Source: an uncultured Bacteroidales bacterium (GTDB lineage Bacteria; Bacteroidota; Bacteroidia; Bacteroidales; Bacteroidaceae). From it: a stretch of DNA of 46,156 bases. The first letter of the stretch is position 1. Every line of letters starts with the position of its first letter. The stretch is taken from positions 1 to 46,156 of the forward strand of contig CACYGK010000008.1 in the NCBI GenBank assembly GCA_902774005.1. The letters run 5' to 3'. The translations under genes were made by a program, and so were the position numbers. Shown here one piece after another: positions 13,330 through 24,036 of the stretch. Under the pieces are notes generated by a model. That model saw only the letters and a program-made list of their open reading frames with translations. It ran no database searches and had not been told where the DNA came from.

Positions 13330-14493
13330 ATGGCAGTTAAGATTTTGAGTGTTGACGACGAAGTGGATTTGGAGCTTCTGTTGACACAGTTTTTCCGTAG
13401 AAAAATACGTAAGGGGGAGTATGAATTTCTCTTTGCCCACAATGGTTTGGAGGCTTTGCAGATGTTGCTGAAGCATCCGGATATTGACATAATTCTTTCA
13501 GATATAAATATGCCTGAGATGGACGGTCTGACTCTGTTGGCTAAAATCAACGAGATGAGGAATCCGGCTCAGAAGTGTATTATGGTAAGTGCCTATGGCG
13601 ATATGGACAATATCCGTAGGGCGATGAACAACGGAGCGTTCGATTTTGCTACCAAGCCGATTGACCTGGAAGATTTGGAACGCTCGATTGAGAATGCCAT
13701 CCAGCAGATTGAGTTTGTGAAGGCTGCTCAGAAAGATAAGAAGGAACTGAGGGATATACAGTCGGATTTGAGTGTGGCAAGAGAGATTCAGTTGGCGATA
13801 CTGCCTCGCAACTTCGACCTTAAGATGCCGAATTCGGAGACTATCGACATCCATGCATCGATGAATGCAGCCAAGGATGTGGGTGGTGACTTCTACGACT
13901 TCTTCCGCATCGACGACGAGAGATTCGGTTTTACGATTGCCGACGTATCAGGAAAGGGTGTGCCGGCTGCCATCTTCATGGCTGTGAGTCGTACGCTTAT
14001 CAAGGCAACGGGTCTGCGCGGATTGTCAGCACATGAGAGTCTGGAGATAGTAAATAATGTGTTGTGCGGAGAGAGTGTCGATTCGATGTTCGTAACTGTA
14101 TTATACGGAATATTCAACATCAAGACAGGAGAGATAAACTATTGCAACGCGGGACATAACGCACCATATATACTCCATCAGGACGGTTCGGTGGAAATGG
14201 TAGACTCGTTTGTCAACATCGTGCTGGGAGCATTTGAGGATATAAAGTTCAAGAGCAACTCGATGACCCTTGCCGAGGGTGATACACTGGTAATGTACAC
14301 AGACGGTGTGACGGAGGCTGAGGACATGGACAAGAATCTGTTTGGCGACCCACGTCTGGCGAGTGTGCTTGGCGAACTGAAGGGTGCCGATAGCGAAACG
14401 ATTGTAGATACCATCAACAAGAAAGTGAAGGAGTTTGCAGGTGACGCACCTCAAAGCGACGACGTGACTGTTCTGGTAATAAGAAGAAAGTAA
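13330..14493 (+). CDS. Response regulator with PP2C/SpoIIE-type serine phosphatase output
   Basis: Residues 1-120 form a CheY-like receiver with acidic pair D9/D10, phospho-acceptor D58 (LSDINMPEMDG), S87 and K109 (ATKPI), so all active residues are present. A helical linker (about 120-155) leads into a SpoIIE/RsbU-type phosphatase with metal-binding acidic motifs GGDFYDFF and IADVSGKGVPAA and the end motif QSDDVTVLVIRRK. Such proteins dephosphorylate serine or threonine on partner proteins when the receiver is phosphorylated; no STAS or anti-sigma partner is in this window. It is followed after 10 bp by the membrane WD40-like gene and then by two kinase genes, so it is the likely phosphorelay output of this operon (inference). 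Confidence 0.93.
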   Translation: MAVKILSVDDEVDLELLLTQFFRRKIRKGEYEFLFAHNGLEALQMLLKHPDIDIILSDINMPEMDGLTLLAKINEMRNPAQKCIMVSAYGDMDNIRRAMNNGAFDFATKPIDLEDLERSIENAIQQIEFVKAAQKDKKELRDIQSDLSVAREIQLAILPRNFDLKMPNSETIDIHASMNAAKDVGGDFYDFFRIDDERFGFTIADVSGKGVPAAIFMAVSRTLIKATGLRGLSAHESLEIVNNVLCGESVDSMFVTVLYGIFNIKTGEINYCNAGHNAPYILHQDGSVEMVDSFVNIVLGAFEDIKFKSNSMTLAEGDTLVMYTDGVTEAEDMDKNLFGDPRLASVLGELKGADSETIVDTINKKVKEFAGDAPQSDDVTVLVIRRK

Positions 14494-14503
14494 TACTGAT
14501 ATC

Positions 14504-16129
14504 GTGAAGACTTCAAAAACAATAATTCTTGCAGGTGTTGCAGCTGTCACAGTTGCAGCTGTGGGTTGGCTTGGCTACACTTTAGGACGCGAAGCCAAGC
14601 AACGTGACCATAATGAATTGTTGTACGAAGTGGAGAAACTGAGGGCAGAGGAGAAGGACGCAGCCGTGACGAAGCGCGTGAGTCAGCAGATGGAGGCTAT
14701 TGCCTACGAGCAGATGAACGTGTCGAACATGCAGAGAGACAGAGCTGAGGAACAGTCGCGTCTGGCTGAAGCCAATGCTGCAAGAGCCGAGGAACAGTCG
14801 CGACTGGCACAGGCAAATGCCGAAAGAGCCCAGCAGCAGACGTTGCTTGCAGAGAAGAACGAGCAGATAGCACGTATGGCTGCTAAGGAAGCTGAGGCAC
14901 AACGTGATGCTGCAACCTATTCGAAGAGTATCAGCGATACGCTCAGTTTCCGTACGCTGAGTCGTTCGTTGGGTACTACGTCAATATCACAGAACGAAAT
15001 AAGCAACAGGGAACTGTCTCAGATATTGGCTTATGCCAGCTGGTACTTCGTAGATAAATACAAGGGTAATCCTTATCAGAACGAGACGTTCCAGGCTCTG
15101 CTGGAAGCAACAAACTCCATTCGTACCTATACCACTCCGAATAGGGGAGCCGTGAATGCTGTTGTCGGACTGAAACAGGGTCGCGACGGTTGTGTGGCTG
15201 TGACTAACTATGGTGAGGTGGCTATGGTGGAAAAAGGAAAGATGAGGATGCTGCTTGAGAATAATATGTACGACTTCCGTGACGTATGGTTGAACGAGAA
15301 GAATATTTTTGCTCTGTCGTACAGCGGACAACTCTGTATTCTCGACTATAACAAACTGGAGGGTGTGGAATTGCTTCCAACAGAGAAATATTTCAAACTT
15401 CTGGAACTCGATGAAACCACTTTGCTGATAGCCGGACGCCATTCACTAACTTGGTTCGACCTGAGAACCATGAAGGCTGGGATGACACTCAAGATTGAGA
15501 AAGAAATCACGACACTCGTGAAGCGCAGGAATCAGACGTATATCTTTTATAAGGACGGAACATGCGATGAAATGGACGGTACTGGTAAGAGAAGCAGTAG
15601 GAAAACCCTTTCATACGGAGTGGTTACGTCGGCTATGTTCTCAGAAACGATGCGTGTGCTGTTCCTGGGTCTGAACAACGGAGATATAGTAATGCTGGAC
15701 GATGGCGACAGGTACATGACGACCCTTAGTGGTCACGTGTCAAAGGTGACAGGACTTGCCTACAGAGGTAAGATACTTGTCTCTTCATGTTACGACAGGG
15801 AGTTGTACATCTGGAATCTGCCGAAGTTGAAGGCTAACATAAAAGGCGGCACTCTGAAAAATGACACAGAAGAGAAAGATAGTGGTACGCCGAGAGAGTG
15901 GCTGGTGCCTGCAGGATATACAAGTAAAGCCTGGGCACTGTGTGTATGTACGAAGGCTGACTGGGCTTGGCTCGGACTGAGCGACGGAAGAATTATCAAA
16001 TACTGTGTATCGGTATCATATATGTCTGATCTGTTACACAAACAACTGAAACGCACTCTGACACATGACGAGTGGATGCAGTATGTGGGACCGAGTGTAG
16101 ATTATATTGATTTTCTGAAAGGTGAATAG
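14504..16129 (+). CDS. Membrane-anchored coiled-coil protein with WD40-like propeller
   Basis: The start is GTG, 10 bp after the previous stop. The product has 541 residues: a membrane helix at about 6-27 (IILAGVAAVTVAAVGWLGY), a long coiled coil at about 35-140 with a repeated RAEEQSRLAEAN/RAEEQSRLAQAN/RAQQQ pattern, and a beta-propeller from about 190 to 520. One clear WD40-like blade reads LSGHVSKVTGLAYRGKILVS followed by ELYIWNL. The topology suggests an inner-membrane anchor. It overlaps the next gene by 8 bp. WD40 propellers usually act as protein docking platforms, so a scaffold between the sensor proteins and the phosphatase is possible, but no direct evidence for that exists in the sequence. 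Confidence 0.75.
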   Translation: MKTSKTIILAGVAAVTVAAVGWLGYTLGREAKQRDHNELLYEVEKLRAEEKDAAVTKRVSQQMEAIAYEQMNVSNMQRDRAEEQSRLAEANAARAEEQSRLAQANAERAQQQTLLAEKNEQIARMAAKEAEAQRDAATYSKSISDTLSFRTLSRSLGTTSISQNEISNRELSQILAYASWYFVDKYKGNPYQNETFQALLEATNSIRTYTTPNRGAVNAVVGLKQGRDGCVAVTNYGEVAMVEKGKMRMLLENNMYDFRDVWLNEKNIFALSYSGQLCILDYNKLEGVELLPTEKYFKLLELDETTLLIAGRHSLTWFDLRTMKAGMTLKIEKEITTLVKRRNQTYIFYKDGTCDEMDGTGKRSSRKTLSYGVVTSAMFSETMRVLFLGLNNGDIVMLDDGDRYMTTLSGHVSKVTGLAYRGKILVSSCYDRELYIWNLPKLKANIKGGTLKNDTEEKDSGTPREWLVPAGYTSKAWALCVCTKADWAWLGLSDGRIIKYCVSVSYMSDLLHKQLKRTLTHDEWMQYVGPSVDYIDFLKGE

Positions 16130-18791
16130 GGTAATATACATATTGATTCTTTTCATGTCGAGCATAGGTTGTTATGCCCGCTACCCGCTTGGTACTCCTT
16201 TCTTCAAGAATTATCCGTCGAAGGTATATGGTGCGCACAACAGAAACTTCGACATCATGTGCGATGACAAGGGTTATGTGTATGTAGCCAACTTCGAGGG
16301 TCTGCTTATATACGATTATATCGGATGGAAGATTATGCACACTCCAGGTATTTCGCGAGTGACGGAACTGAGTCGCGACGAGAAAGGCAGAGTGTGGTTC
16401 AGCGGAATCAACGTAGAGGGATGCATACAGGATATACAGGGCGACAGTATCAAGGTGTTCTATACGAAAAGTGATAAGTATGCTTCAAAGAGCATTACCT
16501 TACGTAGTAAGAAATATGATGATATTGACCGATGGAATGGCATTGAAGTATATAAGAGACTGAAGATTTCTGCCGACCGTACCTTGCTGGCTACGGCTTC
16601 GGCAGGTGTGATAGCCATAGATGCAGATGGAAATGAAGTGTGGTCGGTAAACGAGGAAAAGGGTCTGTGCTCAAATAGTATAAATATGATTGACTACGAC
16701 GGCAAGGGTACTGTGTGGGGAGCAACGGATAACGGTATCTTCTGTATCAACGTGTCGGAGGTTTATACTTATTTCGGACAAAACGAAGGACTGCATGGAC
16801 AGGTTACTTGTATTGCAGAGGCTGAAGACAGACTGTTTGTGGGAACGCTGCAAGGACTGTACTATCTGAAAAATGGCAGATTTGAAAAACTGGATGCGAT
16901 AAACCAGGCATGCTGGCAACTTGCCGAGACTGTAAGAAAGAACGTGATTGCAGCAACCACTAACGGTGTGTTTACCTATGGTGTGGAGGTGGTGCAGAAA
17001 TCGGATAAGATGTCGCTCTCTGTTCTTGTGGAGAATGACGAATCATACCTCTCAGGTGAGTTGGACGGAATTTATCGCCGATGGTATGACAACAGGTGGG
17101 TACTGTTAGACAGCATAACCAATGTCATCAAGATGCAGAAAGACGACAAGGGAGATGTCTGGGCACTGACACTTGGAGGTGAACATTATTATAAACCAGC
17201 AAAAAAAGAGCATTTCATACGTCAGAAGAAAGGTATATTGTCGCAGTTGCTCGAATATACCGATGACAAGGGCAAACATTGGCATTGTAACGACGATGGA
17301 ATGGGACTGGTGATGGACGGAATGCCTGACGATCTGGCAATGTGGTTGAGACCATTCTCTAAATATAATATTCAGGCGATGTACGTCAATAACGGCATTG
17401 TGTGGATAGGAGGAAGTTTCGGACTGATACGTTTCGATATAGATCTCTCTCAGCATGAGAAACCTGTGATGCCTCATGTATATCTGCGTAATTACACGAT
17501 GTCGGACCGTTCCCTGTATGCTGCGATGGCAAACGATAAGCAAGATGCTATAGGTGAGACCATGTACAGTTTCCGACTTCATCATGGTGATGCATGGTCA
17601 AGATGGAGTAACGACCAGGATATCGACTTGCACAATCTTGCGTATGGTTTTTACCAGTTGAGTGTACGTTCTGTCGACCCGTTCGGAAATATAGCCGTGA
17701 GTGAGGAACAAGAGTTCTTGATTCGATATCCGGTATATATGCGGTGGTATGCACTCATATTCTATGTCTTTGTGCTGGCTCTGATTGTCGTGGCAATCTT
17801 CAAGTATCGCACACGTGTGCTGCGTCAGAGACAGGAAGCATTGGAAAGAGTGGTGACTGAACGCACGCAGGAAGTGGTGAAGCAGAAGAATGAGATTGAA
17901 ATTCAGAAGAACGAAATCGAAAACCAGAAGAACGAGATTGAAGAGAAGTCGAACAGACTGGAAACTACGCTGACAGAACTGCGTGAGACGCAGAACGAAC
18001 TGGTGAGAAAGGAAAAGGAGGCTACTGTCGGCAAACTGACTCAGGGACTTATAGACCGTATCCTCAATCCAATGAACTATATCAATAACTTCTCACATCT
18101 CACTCTGGGACTGACGAAGGACTTGAGACAGGATTTGGATGATGAGGCTTCCAATATGAATGCCGACACGTATGAAGACTGTGTGGATGTGCTCAACATG
18201 ATGACTACAAACCTTGAAAAGATAGAGCAACACGGACTCTCAACCACACGTATCCTGAAAGCGATGGAGGAGATGATGAAGGAGCGTTCAAACAAGTTGG
18301 AGCCGATGGATGTGGCAATGCTGTGCGACCAGGCTATAGAAGTGATGAAGAAGTACTACGCAACGGAAATACAGACATACAATATATCGGTGGAATGGGA
18401 CAAACCAGAGTTGCCGATTGTTGCGGATGTAAATCCGGAGTTGATGACAAGGGTAATTGTATCAATGCTTTACAATAGCATGTATGCCGTGATGAAGAAG
18501 GCTGACAAGCTGAAACAGAAGGGCGAGGATTATCAACCTACGATCCGTCTTACGATAATTCCGGAAACAGGTGAGGTACCACCATTCATTGAGATCTATG
18601 ATAACGGAACAGGAATAGAAGAAGGAATAGTCGAAAAGGTATTCGACCCGTTCTTCACTACCAAGCCTACTTCGGAGGCTCCTGGAGTCGGACTCTATAT
18701 GAGTCAGCAGATAATCCAGGACTTTGGCGGAAGCATAAAGGTAGAATCAGAAAAAGACATTTACACAAAATTCATAATTTCATTACCATGA
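16122..18791 (+). CDS. Propeller sensor protein with degenerate histidine-kinase core (pseudokinase candidate)
   Basis: The GTG start overlaps the upstream stop. Signal peptide at about 1-19; periplasmic two-component-regulator propeller blades at about 30-450 (KGYVYVANFEGLLIY, GKGTVWGATDNGIFCI, NGIVWIGGSFGLIRFD); a Y_Y_Y-like domain; one membrane helix at about 541-564; a coiled coil with KNEIEIQ/KNEIENQ/KNEIEEK repeats; then a kinase core. In the dimerisation helix the text is GLIDRILNPMNYINNF, aligning without gaps to GIAHEIQNPLNFVINF of the next gene: the phospho-His is Asp645 and the following Glu is Arg646. The ATPase part keeps an N-box Asn, DNGTGI and GVGLYM, so ATP binding may persist. 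There is no receiver or AraC domain, so it is not a hybrid HTCS. It overlaps the next gene by ATGA (4 bp). Confidence 0.88.
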   Translation: MNRVIYILILFMSSIGCYARYPLGTPFFKNYPSKVYGAHNRNFDIMCDDKGYVYVANFEGLLIYDYIGWKIMHTPGISRVTELSRDEKGRVWFSGINVEGCIQDIQGDSIKVFYTKSDKYASKSITLRSKKYDDIDRWNGIEVYKRLKISADRTLLATASAGVIAIDADGNEVWSVNEEKGLCSNSINMIDYDGKGTVWGATDNGIFCINVSEVYTYFGQNEGLHGQVTCIAEAEDRLFVGTLQGLYYLKNGRFEKLDAINQACWQLAETVRKNVIAATTNGVFTYGVEVVQKSDKMSLSVLVENDESYLSGELDGIYRRWYDNRWVLLDSITNVIKMQKDDKGDVWALTLGGEHYYKPAKKEHFIRQKKGILSQLLEYTDDKGKHWHCNDDGMGLVMDGMPDDLAMWLRPFSKYNIQAMYVNNGIVWIGGSFGLIRFDIDLSQHEKPVMPHVYLRNYTMSDRSLYAAMANDKQDAIGETMYSFRLHHGDAWSRWSNDQDIDLHNLAYGFYQLSVRSVDPFGNIAVSEEQEFLIRYPVYMRWYALIFYVFVLALIVVAIFKYRTRVLRQRQEALERVVTERTQEVVKQKNEIEIQKNEIENQKNEIEEKSNRLETTLTELRETQNELVRKEKEATVGKLTQGLIDRILNPMNYINNFSHLTLGLTKDLRQDLDDEASNMNADTYEDCVDVLNMMTTNLEKIEQHGLSTTRILKAMEEMMKERSNKLEPMDVAMLCDQAIEVMKKYYATEIQTYNISVEWDKPELPIVADVNPELMTRVIVSMLYNSMYAVMKKADKLKQKGEDYQPTIRLTIIPETGEVPPFIEIYDNGTGIEEGIVEKVFDPFFTTKPTSEAPGVGLYMSQQIIQDFGGSIKVESEKDIYTKFIISLP

Positions 18792-19627
18792 CAACCGAGG
18801 AGCAAAAACAAATAGAAGTTCTGCAGGAGCAGTTGCATACGCAGGAGAAGATGGCTTCGCTGGGAATGCTGAGTGCAGGTATAGCGCATGAGATTCAGAA
18901 TCCTCTGAATTTTGTCATCAACTTCAGTAAGATGTCGTCAAAACTTCTTGACGACCTGATGGACATAGTGGAAGAGTGTAAGGATAAGTTGGGCGACGAT
19001 GATGCCGATGAAATCGGTGATATCTCTACTGACCTGAAGGAGAATCTGGAGAAGATTCAGGAGCATGGTGAACGTGCCATAAGCATCATACGTGGCATCC
19101 TGCTGCAGAGTCGTGGTAAGGATGGTGAGTTCTTGCCAACGGATGTATGCAATCTGGTTCATGAATATGTGTGGTTGTCATATCATGCCATGAGAGCTAA
19201 CAACAAAGGTTTCAACATAAGCATCCACGAGGAATATCCGGAGGGTATGCAGAATATTATGGTCATACCACAGGATTTGAGCCGTGCTGTTCTCAATGTC
19301 ATGAACAATGCCTGCTATACGGTCAAGGAAAGGTCGGAAAGGGATGGTGATGATTACAAACCTGCAATAACGGTAAAGGTTGAAGACGGTGCGAACGATT
19401 TTTCTATCATCATAAAAGATAACGGAATGGGAATGTCGGAGGAGACTCGCAAACAACTCTTCAATACTTTTTTCACTACCAAACCCATTGGGCAGGGAAC
19501 AGGATTGGGTATGTCGATAACAAACGATATCATCACAAAGAACCATAAGGGAAAGATATTGGTGGAAACGGCTCCTGACGAGGGTTCCACATTCACATTC
19601 ATCATTCCTAAATCTCAGCAAAAATGA
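18788..19627 (+). CDS. Soluble histidine kinase
   Basis: The product has 279 residues with no signal peptide or membrane helix. A short coiled coil precedes the HisKA-type helix with phospho-acceptor H34 (GIAHEIQNPLNFVINF); the ATPase domain follows with N-box NVMNNACYTV, G1 box DNGMGM, FFTTK and G2 box GTGLGM. It lacks any sensor domain and is coupled by ATGA overlaps to both neighbours. Since the upstream membrane protein has the same core without the histidine, the simplest reading is that the two form a complex in which this protein supplies the phosphoryl group to the receiver of the PP2C protein encoded at 13330. Confidence 0.92.
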   Translation: MTTEEQKQIEVLQEQLHTQEKMASLGMLSAGIAHEIQNPLNFVINFSKMSSKLLDDLMDIVEECKDKLGDDDADEIGDISTDLKENLEKIQEHGERAISIIRGILLQSRGKDGEFLPTDVCNLVHEYVWLSYHAMRANNKGFNISIHEEYPEGMQNIMVIPQDLSRAVLNVMNNACYTVKERSERDGDDYKPAITVKVEDGANDFSIIIKDNGMGMSEETRKQLFNTFFTTKPIGQGTGLGMSITNDIITKNHKGKILVETAPDEGSTFTFIIPKSQQK

Positions 19628-21969
19628 AGCGTGTTATCTTCTACATATTGTTAATGATGAGTGTGACGGCGAAGGGTCAGGAAGTCCTTTCGCAGGCACA
19701 AACTGCGTTCGACATGGGACACTTTGAGCAGTTGGACACACTCCTTCTGAACAATATGGATGAAATCAAAGGCGAGGGACAGATTACGGCTTACCGACTT
19801 CTGGCTTTAAGCAGTCTTTATCAGGACAAGCCGGCAGAAGCAGAACTGTACGCTGGAAAACTGTTGGCTCTCGATCCATATTATACGGCTTATGGGGAGT
19901 CGCCGCGATTTGTGGATATCCTGGAACGACTGAAAAAGGGAAAGACTATGGTCACCACTGCATCAAGGGTAGAGGAAACGCCTGAGGAGGTGCCTGTGCC
20001 AGTAACCCTGATTACAGAGGAAATGATACAGGCTTCAGGAGCACGTACACTTAGTGAGTTGCTGCTGCTTTATGTACCAGGCATGTCTGCCATTGGAAGT
20101 GTGGAGGACAACATGGCAATGCGCGGAGTATATGGTCTGACACAGGAACATATGCTCGTCATGCTCAACGGTCATCGTCTGAACAGTTTCAGTACCAACG
20201 CCGAGGCGTTTGACTTCCGTCAGAATCTGGAGAAGATAAAGCAGATTGAAGTACTTCGTGGTCCGGCCTCTTCGCTCTATGGAAACGTGGCTCTGACAGC
20301 CGTTGTGAACATCATTACAAAGTCTGGTTCGGAGATTGAAGGTCTGTCGCTTACAGCCAAGGCAGGACTGAACAACAGTTATGGTGGCACACTGCTCTTT
20401 GGTGAAGGAAACCTGAGAACTGATGTACTTGCATGGGCTTCGCTCTATACTTCTAGGGGTGAGAAACGTTGGGAGAACAACACGCTGCGTTACATAGGTG
20501 GATACAATAATAAACCATCGTACGATTTGGGTATGAACGTGAGATGGGGAGATTTTACGATTGCAGCGATAGGTCAGCACTCAAAGACTGTACCTTACTA
20601 TAATCTGGTAGACTTTGACAATTACTTCACATACGATAAGTACGACTCGCAAGAGGGTGAGAAACCAGGAATTTCACGTATGCATGTGGGAGCCAACTTG
20701 GACTACACCCATACATTCGGCAATCTTACCATTTCTGCATCGGCATTTGCGACGAGCGAAAGGGTTCAGATATACAATGTGCTGGGTGATACAGTAAATC
20801 CCTTTGTTGCCAGCGCCCTTCTTTTTCTGTTCGATATGGATAATACTATGCCCGCACATACAATAGGTGTATGGCAAAGTGTACATTGGGAGGACTATAG
20901 CATGGGAGGCATGCTGAATGCAACTTATAAGTACAGAATGTCAGAGAATATGTATGGTTCGCTGTTGGGTGGTATTCAGTATGATTACTTCAAACTGTCG
21001 GATACATCGTTGAATTTGGGTCATGACTTCAATAAAGTGCATCTGACCACCAATACTATATTTACGCGTGGCGACGAACAGATGGCGTCGGCTTTCGTTC
21101 AGTTGAAACATAACTTCACGAAGCGGCTCATCTTCAACGGAGGTGTGAGATTTGATCATAAACAAAGGAACGACCATCGGAATATAAACACCGTCTCACC
21201 TCGTGCGGCACTCATATACATACCTAACAGTACGTTCAGCATAAAGGGAACATATGCCCATTCCTTTGTAGACGCTCCGTTCCTGTATCGTGCAGCAGAT
21301 ATATCTATATTCACTGGTTCGGAGAATATGGACCCAGAACACATGGATGCCATTCAGGTAAGTGCCACACTCAACCTGAAACCAATCAACACGAAATGTG
21401 AGTTGAATGTGTTCTATACTGACGTCCGCGACCTTGTCTTCTATACCAGCAATGACCTTAATGCCCACAGTCTGTTTGAAAATGCCGGAAATATAAGCAT
21501 GGGAGGAGTGGAAGGTGTTATCCAATACATTACTCCAAAGACTCTTCTGAATCTTAACATGACATATCAATACCCATTCAAGGTGGAGAACTTTTCCTCT
21601 CCGGATCACAACGTATGTAACATTTCACGTTTCCTACTCAATCTCGTGGGTTCGCAGCGACTATTCTCTACCTCACGTCTCGGCTCATTCTGGGTGCGTG
21701 CCAATATGCATTTCCAGACGGGTATGAAGTGCCTTGACAACGACCTGAAGAAGTCATCCCCCGATCCCAACATAAGCTACATAACTATTGACCAGTCGGC
21801 TGTGGCTATCTTTGGTGCAGGACTGGAGTGGAAACTCCCGTTCCGTCTTACGGCAGCATTCGATACGTACAACCTGTTCAATACTCACTATAAGATAGGT
21901 GGACGCCTGCAGCAGGGTAATCCGTCGCAGGGATTCAGTTTCCTGGGCAGACTGACATACGATTTTTAA
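19624..21969 (+). CDS. TonB-dependent receptor with N-terminal TPR-like region
   Basis: The product has 781 residues. After a signal peptide (MKRVIFYILLMMSVTAKG) comes a roughly 85-residue helical region with TPR flavour (QAQTAFDMGHFEQLDTLLL, PAEAELYAGKLLALDPYY), then the plug (PVPVTLITEEMIQASGARTL, VLRGPASSLYGNVALTAVVN) and a barrel ending LGRLTYDF. It is not SusC-like: no SusD follows and it is shorter. Such receptors usually import metal complexes, vitamins or other small ligands. The ATG overlaps the kinase stop by 4 bp, so it is produced with the signalling proteins. Ligand unknown. Confidence 0.9.
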   Translation: MKRVIFYILLMMSVTAKGQEVLSQAQTAFDMGHFEQLDTLLLNNMDEIKGEGQITAYRLLALSSLYQDKPAEAELYAGKLLALDPYYTAYGESPRFVDILERLKKGKTMVTTASRVEETPEEVPVPVTLITEEMIQASGARTLSELLLLYVPGMSAIGSVEDNMAMRGVYGLTQEHMLVMLNGHRLNSFSTNAEAFDFRQNLEKIKQIEVLRGPASSLYGNVALTAVVNIITKSGSEIEGLSLTAKAGLNNSYGGTLLFGEGNLRTDVLAWASLYTSRGEKRWENNTLRYIGGYNNKPSYDLGMNVRWGDFTIAAIGQHSKTVPYYNLVDFDNYFTYDKYDSQEGEKPGISRMHVGANLDYTHTFGNLTISASAFATSERVQIYNVLGDTVNPFVASALLFLFDMDNTMPAHTIGVWQSVHWEDYSMGGMLNATYKYRMSENMYGSLLGGIQYDYFKLSDTSLNLGHDFNKVHLTTNTIFTRGDEQMASAFVQLKHNFTKRLIFNGGVRFDHKQRNDHRNINTVSPRAALIYIPNSTFSIKGTYAHSFVDAPFLYRAADISIFTGSENMDPEHMDAIQVSATLNLKPINTKCELNVFYTDVRDLVFYTSNDLNAHSLFENAGNISMGGVEGVIQYITPKTLLNLNMTYQYPFKVENFSSPDHNVCNISRFLLNLVGSQRLFSTSRLGSFWVRANMHFQTGMKCLDNDLKKSSPDPNISYITIDQSAVAIFGAGLEWKLPFRLTAAFDTYNLFNTHYKIGGRLQQGNPSQGFSFLGRLTYDF

Positions 21970-21987
21970 CGACACATTATATATATT

Positions 21988-24036
21988 ATGTTTGATATAA
22001 AGGTTATGGCATTAACAGTAATGATGACAGGCAGCATGATGAGTGCCGCCGCTGAGAATGATTTTAAGTACGCTGACGAACGCTTTGCGGACTTGCAGAT
22101 GCTGAGGTATAAGGTTCCGGGATTTGAAAATCTGAGTCTGAAGCAGAAGACATTTATATACTATCTGCAGGAAGCAGCTCTGTGGGGACGTGATATACTA
22201 TGGGATCAGAACTGCCGTTACAATCTTCGCGTGCGTCGTGTACTCGAAGAGGTGTATAAGCAGGAAATGCGTTTCCGTACGGGTAACGAAGACGACAAGG
22301 AAGAATTTCAGGCTTTTGAGACATACCTGAAACGTGTATGGTTCAGTAACGGTATTCACCATCATTATGGATGTGATAAATTCCAGCCGGAATTCTCCTC
22401 TGCCTGGTTCAGGAATTGTGTTCTGAAGTATGCTTCGTCGTTCAATGATGTACAGGGAGGACTCGAACCTCTGCTTAAAGATGTCTGTGAAGTCATATTC
22501 AATCCTTATATACTTCAGAAACGTATCAATCTTGCTGAGGGTGTGGATCTTATAAAGACATCTGCCTCCAATTATTATTCCGGAGTTACTCAGGCAGAGG
22601 CAGAAGCATTCTACGAGAAGCAGAAAGCAGAAGGTGATGCACTCCATCCGGTGATGTATGGAATGAATTCACGTCTTGTAAAAGATTCCAAGGGACGTAT
22701 CTACGAGAAGAAGTGGACTGTCAACGGACTCTATGGCAGTGCAATAAAAAATATCGTCGATAATCTGCTGCTTGCACGTGAGTATGCAGAAGACCAAAAG
22801 CAGAAAGAAGTGATAGACCTGCTCGTTTCTTATTATCGTACAGGTGATTTGAAGACCTTCGACGATTACAGCATTGCATGGGCAGGGAATACAGAACCTC
22901 TGATTGACTTCGTAAACGGTTTCATCGAGTGTTACGGTGATCCACTGGGTTTGAAGTGCTCGTGGGAAAGTCTTGTAAACTTCAAAGACCTTGTTGCAAC
23001 GAAACGTACAGAGACCTTGAGTAAGAATGCGCAGTGGTTTGAAGACCACAGTCCTGTCGATGCTGCGTTCAAGAAGGACAAGGTTAAGGGCGTGAGTGCA
23101 AAGGTTATCAATGCAGCTCTGTTGGCTGGTGACCTCTATCCTTCTACGGCAATAGGTATCAACCTGCCGAACTCCAACTGGATACGTCGCGAGTATGGTT
23201 CAAAGTCGGTGACCATCGGCAATATCACAGATGCATATAATCAGGCAGCTAAGGGCAACGGAATGAGGGAAGAGTTCGTCCTTTCCGATTCTGACAAGGA
23301 GTTGCTCGAAAAGTATGCCGACGTATGTGATGAACTGCATACCGACCTCCATGAATGTCTTGGACATGGTTCCGGAAAACTGCTCGACGGAGTTGATCCT
23401 GACTCACTGAAAGCATACGGCAGTACGATTGAAGAGGCGCGTGCCGATTTGTTTGCTCTTTATTATTTGCCTGATGCCAAACTTGTGGAACTGGGACTCA
23501 CACCCAATGCCGAAGCATATAAGGCCAGTTACTATGCCCAGATGCAGAATGGTCTGATGACACAACTCGTGCGCATTCAGCCAGGTAAGAATCTGGAGGA
23601 AGCACATATGCGCAACCGCGCCCTTATTGCACATTGGGCATTTGAACATGGAAAGGCTGAAAACGTATGTGAATTTGTAAAGGTGAATGGCAAGACTTAC
23701 CTGCGTATAAATGATTATGAGAAACTTCGTGTTCTGTTCGGCAAACTGCTTGCAGAGATACAGCGAATAAAGTCGACAGGCGATTATCAGGGTGCGCAGG
23801 CTTTGGTTGAGCAATATGGTGTGAAGGTTGACCCCGAACTTCATAAGGAAGTGCTGGAGCGCTACTCAAAACTGAATATAGCTCCTTACAAAGGTTTTAT
23901 CAATCCGAAATATACAGCAGTTAAAGACAAGGAGGGTAAGATTATTGATGTAAAGGTGTCGTACAATGAAGGATATGCAGAGCAGATGATGCGTTATTCA
24001 GCCATGTATTCTGCCTTGCCACTTGTAAATGAATAA
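21988..24036 (+). CDS. Dipeptidyl peptidase III (peptidase family M49)
   Basis: The product has 682 residues, near the usual bacterial size. The zinc motif is HECLGH (H455-H460), the Cys variant of the eukaryotic HELLGH that I recall from Bacteroides DPP III, followed by GSGKLL; the third ligand region is EEARAD (E482-E483). The N-terminal part (YKVPGFENLSLKQKTFIYYL, ALWGRDILWDQNCRYNLRVR) is typical for the Bacteroidetes branch. A short hydrophobic start (MALTVMMTGSMMSAAA) suggests export. It removes dipeptides from the N-terminus of short peptides. It lies 18 bp after the receptor gene and overlaps the next by 8 bp, possibly linking receptor ligand and peptides. Confidence 0.92.
   Translation: MFDIKVMALTVMMTGSMMSAAAENDFKYADERFADLQMLRYKVPGFENLSLKQKTFIYYLQEAALWGRDILWDQNCRYNLRVRRVLEEVYKQEMRFRTGNEDDKEEFQAFETYLKRVWFSNGIHHHYGCDKFQPEFSSAWFRNCVLKYASSFNDVQGGLEPLLKDVCEVIFNPYILQKRINLAEGVDLIKTSASNYYSGVTQAEAEAFYEKQKAEGDALHPVMYGMNSRLVKDSKGRIYEKKWTVNGLYGSAIKNIVDNLLLAREYAEDQKQKEVIDLLVSYYRTGDLKTFDDYSIAWAGNTEPLIDFVNGFIECYGDPLGLKCSWESLVNFKDLVATKRTETLSKNAQWFEDHSPVDAAFKKDKVKGVSAKVINAALLAGDLYPSTAIGINLPNSNWIRREYGSKSVTIGNITDAYNQAAKGNGMREEFVLSDSDKELLEKYADVCDELHTDLHECLGHGSGKLLDGVDPDSLKAYGSTIEEARADLFALYYLPDAKLVELGLTPNAEAYKASYYAQMQNGLMTQLVRIQPGKNLEEAHMRNRALIAHWAFEHGKAENVCEFVKVNGKTYLRINDYEKLRVLFGKLLAEIQRIKSTGDYQGAQALVEQYGVKVDPELHKEVLERYSKLNIAPYKGFINPKYTAVKDKEGKIIDVKVSYNEGYAEQMMRYSAMYSALPLVNE

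Follow-up and report, generated by a model that had tools for sequence, protein, structure and literature searches.

Predicted sensor pseudokinases of Bacteroidales with Asp-Arg at the phospho-histidine site, usually encoded beside a small sensorless histidine kinase

The window analysed here, 46,156 nucleotides of contig CACYGK010000008.1 (forward strand, positions 1 to 46,156) from the uncultured Bacteroidales genome GCA_902774005.1, carries two overlapping genes for histidine kinase cores that differ at the site of phosphorylation. The first (16122..18791, +) encodes an 889-residue sensor protein with Asp-Arg (D645-R646) in the places of the phospho-accepting His and the Glu after it, and the second (18788..19627, +) a 279-residue kinase that keeps His-Glu (H34-E35); we refer to these as the DR protein and the HE kinase, and use the same letters for their relatives. 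Our preferred reading, to which we give a probability of roughly 0.55, is that the two function together as a single split sensor: a pseudokinase with the sensor would gate the kinase that lacks one, and this kinase would drive a partner-switching phosphatase. In such a two-protein histidine kinase the DR protein would provide the sensory part, using its Reg_prop sensor and its membrane helix to read a periplasmic signal. Because its DHp helix has Asp-Arg and not His-Glu, it is expected to be kinase-inactive, predicted to be unable to autophosphorylate or to donate phosphate; the phospho-histidine would be supplied by the neighbouring HE kinase, with contact expected through the homologous DHp helices. 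The DR protein would set whether the HE kinase phosphorylates the receiver (REC) domain of a regulator with a SpoIIE-type PP2C phosphatase domain (REC-PP2C) encoded in the same gene run, and this phosphatase would act on the phosphorylated STAS protein of an RsbW/STAS partner switch.

The exchange is evident when the two window proteins are aligned, with D645 opposite H34 and R646 opposite E35; the acceptor His and following acidic residue of HisKA kinases are both absent from the DR protein. The two codons lie at 18054..18059 (+), counted from the GTG at 16122, a start predicted from the reading frame. Both reading frames are unbroken, and the genes overlap by ATGA, which is seen in the sequence TCATTACCATGACAACCGAG at bases 18780-18799, where the DR stop occupies 18789-18791 and the HE ATG begins at 18788. 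Among 231 distinct related cores from the fetched loci, counted where the motif was readable and excluding cores gapped there, 53 have Asp-Arg, 177 His-Glu and one His-Ala, with none having Asp-Glu or His-Arg. Removing near-copies left 213 cores, and a tree was built from 137 of them (52 DR and 85 HE, the other 76 HE rows being omitted by locus number) after deleting the two motif columns. In this tree, made with a quick maximum-likelihood method, rooted at the midpoint and supported by the Shimodaira–Hasegawa-like approximate likelihood ratio test (SH-aLRT) with no bootstrap, a branch with SH-aLRT support of 100 separates the 52 DR rows from the HE rows. The tree alignment has D and R in 52 of 52 DR rows each, and H and E in 85 of 85 HE rows each.

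DR cores are otherwise diverse, with a median pairwise identity of 46% and a minimum of 28%; invariant columns number 24 of 276, and nine of those fall within residues 642-657. Because both letters are kept in 52 of 52 cores despite pairwise identity down to 28%, the sequences argue for fixation of Asp-Arg, not decay. We rejected decay or sequencing error, given the intact frame of the window gene and the fixed pair in 52 cores, and repeated independent loss of the His, given that a single branch parts the DR from the HE rows. These results bear out much of the original prediction, made from the bases of the window, which had aligned D645 and R646 with H34 and E35, noted the ATGA overlap and the lack of stop codons or frame damage, taken the loss to be selected, and proposed that conservation of the two columns be checked in homologues; at 52/52 and 85/85 rows, the alignment is not a matter of chance.

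The underlying searches covered several taxonomic levels. A search with the sensor was positive in 15 of 45 genus genomes at E 1e-20 and in 27 of 399 family genomes at E 1e-60. Searching with a profile built from 18 DR cores gave 25 positives among 393 order genomes at E 1e-60 and 77 among 395 phylum genomes at E 1e-45, with the positives of both profile searches being a mixture of DR and HE cores. Few candidates were scored per genome, and up to 30 loci (numbered here with an L) were taken from each search; a contig scan of named genomes yielded at least 592 stretches, of which the best 80 were used. The 55 DR genes found include two pairs with identical cores (L058/L192 and L205/L221), leaving 53 distinct DR genes.

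The DR protein consists of the Reg_prop sensor, a membrane-type helix, a long helix, the DHp domain with D645-R646 and an ATP-binding domain, at the end of which the chain stops with no fused receiver or AraC-type DNA-binding domain. Pfam matched HATPase_c and Reg_prop (3.7e-08) in it, did not match HisKA at E 0.01 and found no PAS domain. In an AlphaFold2 model (mean predicted local distance difference test score 81, predicted template modelling score 0.54, low confidence at around residues 575-598 and 627-632), strands dominate to about residue 534 and are followed by helices at 538-578, 593-674 and 681-723 and then an alpha/beta domain; the membrane helix was called by eye and from this model. 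The top Foldseek match in the PDB was the periplasmic sensor of BT4663 (2.4e-22), with kinase cores including ZraS (3.8e-14) and HK853 ranking lower. The model, the Foldseek matches and the conserved residues all indicate the two-helix DHp of HisKA kinases and their ATP-binding domain with its N, G1, F and G2 boxes. Consistent with this, the ATP-site residues N785, D827, G829, G831, T846, T847, G855 and G857 are present in all 52 DR cores and K848 in 51. A sensor region like that of the window was matched in most fetched DR loci.

The HE kinase (Pfam HisKA 9.6e-08, HATPase_c 1.3e-19) has 33 residues N-terminal of its His and no other Pfam domain, with no receiver. Its input must for this reason come from elsewhere, and since of the two the DR protein alone carries a sensor or membrane helix, a DR:HE sensor unit is favoured and heterodimerization of the two is plausible. 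The original description of a membrane protein with a sensor and an ATP-binding domain, next to a small kinase that keeps the His and has no sensor, agrees with Pfam, AlphaFold2 and Foldseek.

The two proteins also occur and evolve together. Of the 399 family genomes, 27 yielded both the DR protein (at E 1e-60) and the HE kinase (at E 1e-40) and the other 372 neither, and an HE kinase lies within 1.3 kb of 46 of the 53 distinct DR genes; the neighbourhoods of two, L200 and L056, are cut by contig ends. Distances between DR proteins correlate with those between their HE kinases across 34 close pairs (Mantel r 0.87, best of 999 permutations 0.25) and across all 43 pairs, compiled by hand from tree names (r 0.96, best permutation 0.49), the latter value being raised by deep divisions. 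At L209, a rearrangement has left the DR, WD40-like and TonB receptor genes divergent from those for the REC-PP2C regulator and the HE kinase, with the genes still neighbours. At L195 (7125-9401), two tandem DR genes are accompanied by one HE kinase and one REC-PP2C gene.

The likely output is encoded upstream. At 13330..14493 (+) lies a gene for a 387-residue regulator (Pfam Response_reg 1.2e-22, SpoIIE 7.9e-52) with a predicted phospho-acceptor at Asp58, and a REC-SpoIIE gene is found within 2.5 kb of 46 of the 53 distinct DR genes. All 46 regulator rows (matches at E 1e-60 in the fetched loci, near-copies included) keep D58, K109, D187, D205, D325 and D378, that is, both a receiver with its phospho-Asp position and a SpoIIE domain with its Asp residues. 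That the PP2C domain acts on a STAS protein is what we infer from established partner-switching systems. STAS and RsbW-like genes are both present within about 6 kb of 11 of the 53 DR genes; they are part of the DR module's own gene run at L194, L196 and L204, and stand apart from each other at L219, L208 and L223. In the window's own genome, STAS and RsbW-like genes are neighbours on another contig (G000:C29), and there are at G000:C62:178-1230 SpoIIE and RsbW-like matches, each reported in a 750-residue open frame, which from its sequence appears to be a second partner-switching (SpoIIE) protein of this genome.

Relatives that keep His-Glu offer a view of how the pair may have arisen. A REC-SpoIIE gene lies in the flanks (within 1.5 kb) of 18 of 40 loci of HE-bearing relatives, and a second kinase of the same type was seen in the flanks of one locus among the 40, L180. 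A window-like sensor was matched in 13 of the 40 (L139-L149, L151 and L154). Homologues that keep the His without the small kinase, which the original prediction had named as evidence against itself, do exist, those same loci being examples that have no small kinase in their short flanks, but none of those included in the tree is within the DR branch. A fork with support 99 joins this branch to 15 Bacteroidales HE rows. Because of the HE relatives beside REC-SpoIIE genes and the placements in the tree, the one-kinase form probably came first, with the HE relatives adjacent to REC-SpoIIE probably representing the older form, and the sequences suggest that the small kinase is not a recent copy of the DR gene. 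A recent tandem DR/HE duplication within the family was likewise unsupported, as 39 of 43 HE partners lie far from the DR rows in the tree.

Several observations weigh against the split sensor. There is no HE kinase in the fetched stretch of four DR genes (L201, L203, L212 and L054), and the second DR gene of L202 is 7.9 kb from one. The original prediction had raised the question of whether the D/R protein is always paired with the small kinase; the shared 27 of 399 genomes and the correlated distances uphold the pairing, but these five genes led us to reject constant adjacency. At L205 (and at L221, identical in core), DR and HE genes are both present and no REC-PP2C gene was found in the fetched stretch, with STAS and RsbW-like genes present there although the regulator is not next door (the STAS match being weak, 6e-06). 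Periplasmic sensing is not universal among DR proteins, because at L194-L196 and L055 the core follows apparent membrane helices and a coiled coil (by eye) and no propeller; dependence of the DR protein on a propeller was rejected on the same loci. The HE partners do not form one tree group, with 39 of 43 together far from the DR rows and four (L132, L133, L134 and L137) beside them; this may reflect a single exchange of the partner kinase or rows misplaced by the quick tree. In 43 of 52 DR cores, Ala replaces the first Gly of the G2 box, a change that could weaken ATP binding. Finally, DR and HE homodimers are possible, because both kinase-like proteins keep full DHp domains. As separate observations, the DR cores of L212 (6377-8410) and L201 (8278-10722) lie inside TPR-like proteins (by eye) with no HE kinase nearby, and L201 has near its DR gene a SpoIIE-type protein and one that we take to be SiaB-like.

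We regard it as a serious though less probable alternative that the DR protein, a histidine-kinase scaffold lacking the kinase residues, serves as a transmitter phosphatase dedicated to the REC domain: it would dock the phosphorylated domain and strip its phosphate under periplasmic control, with the HE kinase constitutive or regulated separately. DR proteins have lost exactly the kinase residues His and Glu and keep the phosphatase-type Asn N649 (the His+4 position) along with P650, N652 and N656, each in 52 of 52 cores. This is the pattern of CrdS, in which the Glu serves the kinase only, most phosphatase activity survives loss of the His and the His+4 Asn serves the phosphatase only, and the i,i+4 acid-amide spacing of D645 and N649 matches the DxxxQ motif of CheZ (both per PMC3510030). 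Nearly all HE relatives nevertheless have the same Asn and Pro, which may be structural; DivL shows no phosphatase activity (PMC4211667); and PMC12632262 disputes that such activity is a general role of pseudo-histidine kinases. The likeness to CheZ may be accidental, because CrdS N375Q has no measurable phosphatase activity, N375T is partly active and no acidic residue is required (PMC3510030). The sensor-unit and phosphatase roles could also be combined in one DR protein. A broader and more tentative proposal, which we would not favour at present, is a Bacteroidales division of labour in which a sensor changed from His-Glu to Asp-Arg is the REC phosphatase and forms an obligate heterodimer with the sensorless kinase. 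An ancestral sensor kinase feeding the REC-PP2C partner switch would have given rise to the DR/HE pair clade-wide, D645 and N649 together with the class-specific Y653, R710 and E716 would rebuild the site of a signal-controlled REC phosphatase, and the ATP domain of the DR protein may phosphorylate the histidine of its partner in trans.

It seems improbable that the DR core instead binds the REC-PP2C regulator in a phosphorylation-dependent manner and feeds its state back to the HE kinase, with no relay of a periplasmic signal. DivL does bind phosphorylated DivK, does not remove its phosphate and has a separate kinase as its presumed target (PMC4211667), and the nine invariant DR-core columns at residues 642-657 surround the former acceptor site; yet most fetched DR loci have the window-like sensor region, and DR proteins keep most ATP-site residues whereas DivL binds an ATP analogue weakly. 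Least credible, to the point that we would be surprised by it, is a non-functional relic, with a degenerate kinase core and a role left for the sensor or membrane anchor alone: the His and Glu are indeed gone, but Asp-Arg is invariant in 52 of 52 cores at identity as low as 28%, the ATP-site residues are kept and the window frame is unbroken.

Other positions also separate the two classes. Residues 645, 646, 653, 654, 715 and 716 (D645, R646, Y653, I654, M715 and E716 in the DR protein) are at least 90% fixed in DR proteins and in HE partners, with different letters, and the M715 of the DR class is common to most other HE relatives. R710 is present in 51 of 52 DR cores and is Ser in 33 of 43 HE partners; from helix register only, we would guess at a contact between D645 and R710. 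H704 is a less likely alternative phospho-acceptor of the DR protein, but HE relatives have this His as well (35 of 43 partners and 40 of 42 others).

In established systems of the RsbU/RsbV/RsbW type, partner switching can be run by a REC-PP2C regulator. The DR module resembles them in its SpoIIE phosphatase with conserved Asp residues and in the STAS and RsbW-like genes near 11 of 53 DR genes, and differs in receiving its input through a pseudokinase-kinase pair. Hybrid two-component systems (HTCS) carry a fused receiver and AraC-type DNA-binding domain. The Bacteroides HTCS sensors BT4663 and BT4673 share the Reg_prop periplasmic sensor fold of the DR protein (Foldseek), which in contrast lacks the fused domains, has a core without the His and has its output on a separate REC-PP2C protein. 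Among pseudokinases, ChrS is reportedly another example. DivL of Caulobacter is, like the DR protein, a kinase scaffold with a fixed non-His acceptor residue and a separate active kinase, CckA; the acceptor residue is fixed across DR orthologues as well, as Asp and not Tyr. DivL differs in its Tyr (Ala in one species), PAS domains, hybrid kinase with phosphorelay and weak binding of an ATP analogue (PMC4211667), whereas the DR module has Asp-Arg, a Reg_prop sensor, an overlapping gene for a sensorless 279-residue HisKA kinase and a REC-PP2C regulator, and by Pfam neither PAS sensors nor a CckA-like hybrid kinase partner. FasBCA of group A Streptococcus likewise pairs two sensor-kinase-like proteins, a proposed pseudokinase heterodimer, with one regulator (PMC12675982); the proposed pseudokinase FasC keeps its phospho-His, H246, and has a dispensable kinase domain, whereas the DR protein keeps the ATP site without the His. 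CheA3/CheA4 of Rhodobacter sphaeroides splits kinase functions over two complexed proteins (PMC3591291), as the DR and HE proteins would if they form a complex; there ATP binding is parted from phosphotransfer, whereas here the HE kinase has both and the DR protein alone lacks the His. RetS/GacS, mentioned in PMC12675982, is a further functional parallel. As far as the cited passages show, none of DivL, FasBC, CheA3/CheA4 and RetS/GacS has this residue pair together with this partner and output.

To our knowledge, few kinases without the His have a known partner. HisKA domains without the His are uncommon, making up 0.9% of those sampled (722 of 76,471; PMC12632262). Among the matches listed in our search of the open-access literature, with subscription papers outside it, we found no description of the DR family, and among the matches listed no paper on two-component control of partner switching in Bacteroidales, to which the DR module points. 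The family is conserved, its substitution is fixed, it comes with a usual partner and a usual regulator, and it has relatives in which the His is still present. How a kinase is divided into sensor and catalyst, and whether kinase and phosphatase activity can be separated onto two proteins, can therefore be tested directly in soluble cores about 280 residues long.

In the window, six co-directional genes joined by overlaps or short gaps span 13330-24036. Between the regulator and DR genes, 14504..16129 (+) encodes a WD40-like protein of 541 residues that begins, as judged by eye, with a hydrophobic helix and a coiled coil and continues with WD40-like repeats, for which Pfam gave weak WD40 or propeller matches, all below the cut-off. 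In the window's family, every one of the 29 stretches fetched, the window included, has a homologue no more than 30 bases from the DR gene. Downstream, 19624..21969 (+) encodes a TonB-dependent receptor (Pfam Plug and TonB_dep_Rec) with an N-terminal extension before the plug, followed at 21988-24036 by an M49 peptidase in the same direction. The receptor is a usual, non-universal neighbour of the DR gene, within 1.3 kb in 27 of the 29 stretches; neither it nor the WD40-like homologue was found in the fetched stretches of L194-L196 and L055. Transport of the sensed compound by this receptor may be possible. At L197, L200 and L203, a long transporter-like gene, presumably resembling ADP/ATP translocases, lies directly upstream of the DR gene. 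Elsewhere in the window's genome, G000:C15:19499-22066 has two HATPase_c matches, each reported in a 1545-residue open frame.
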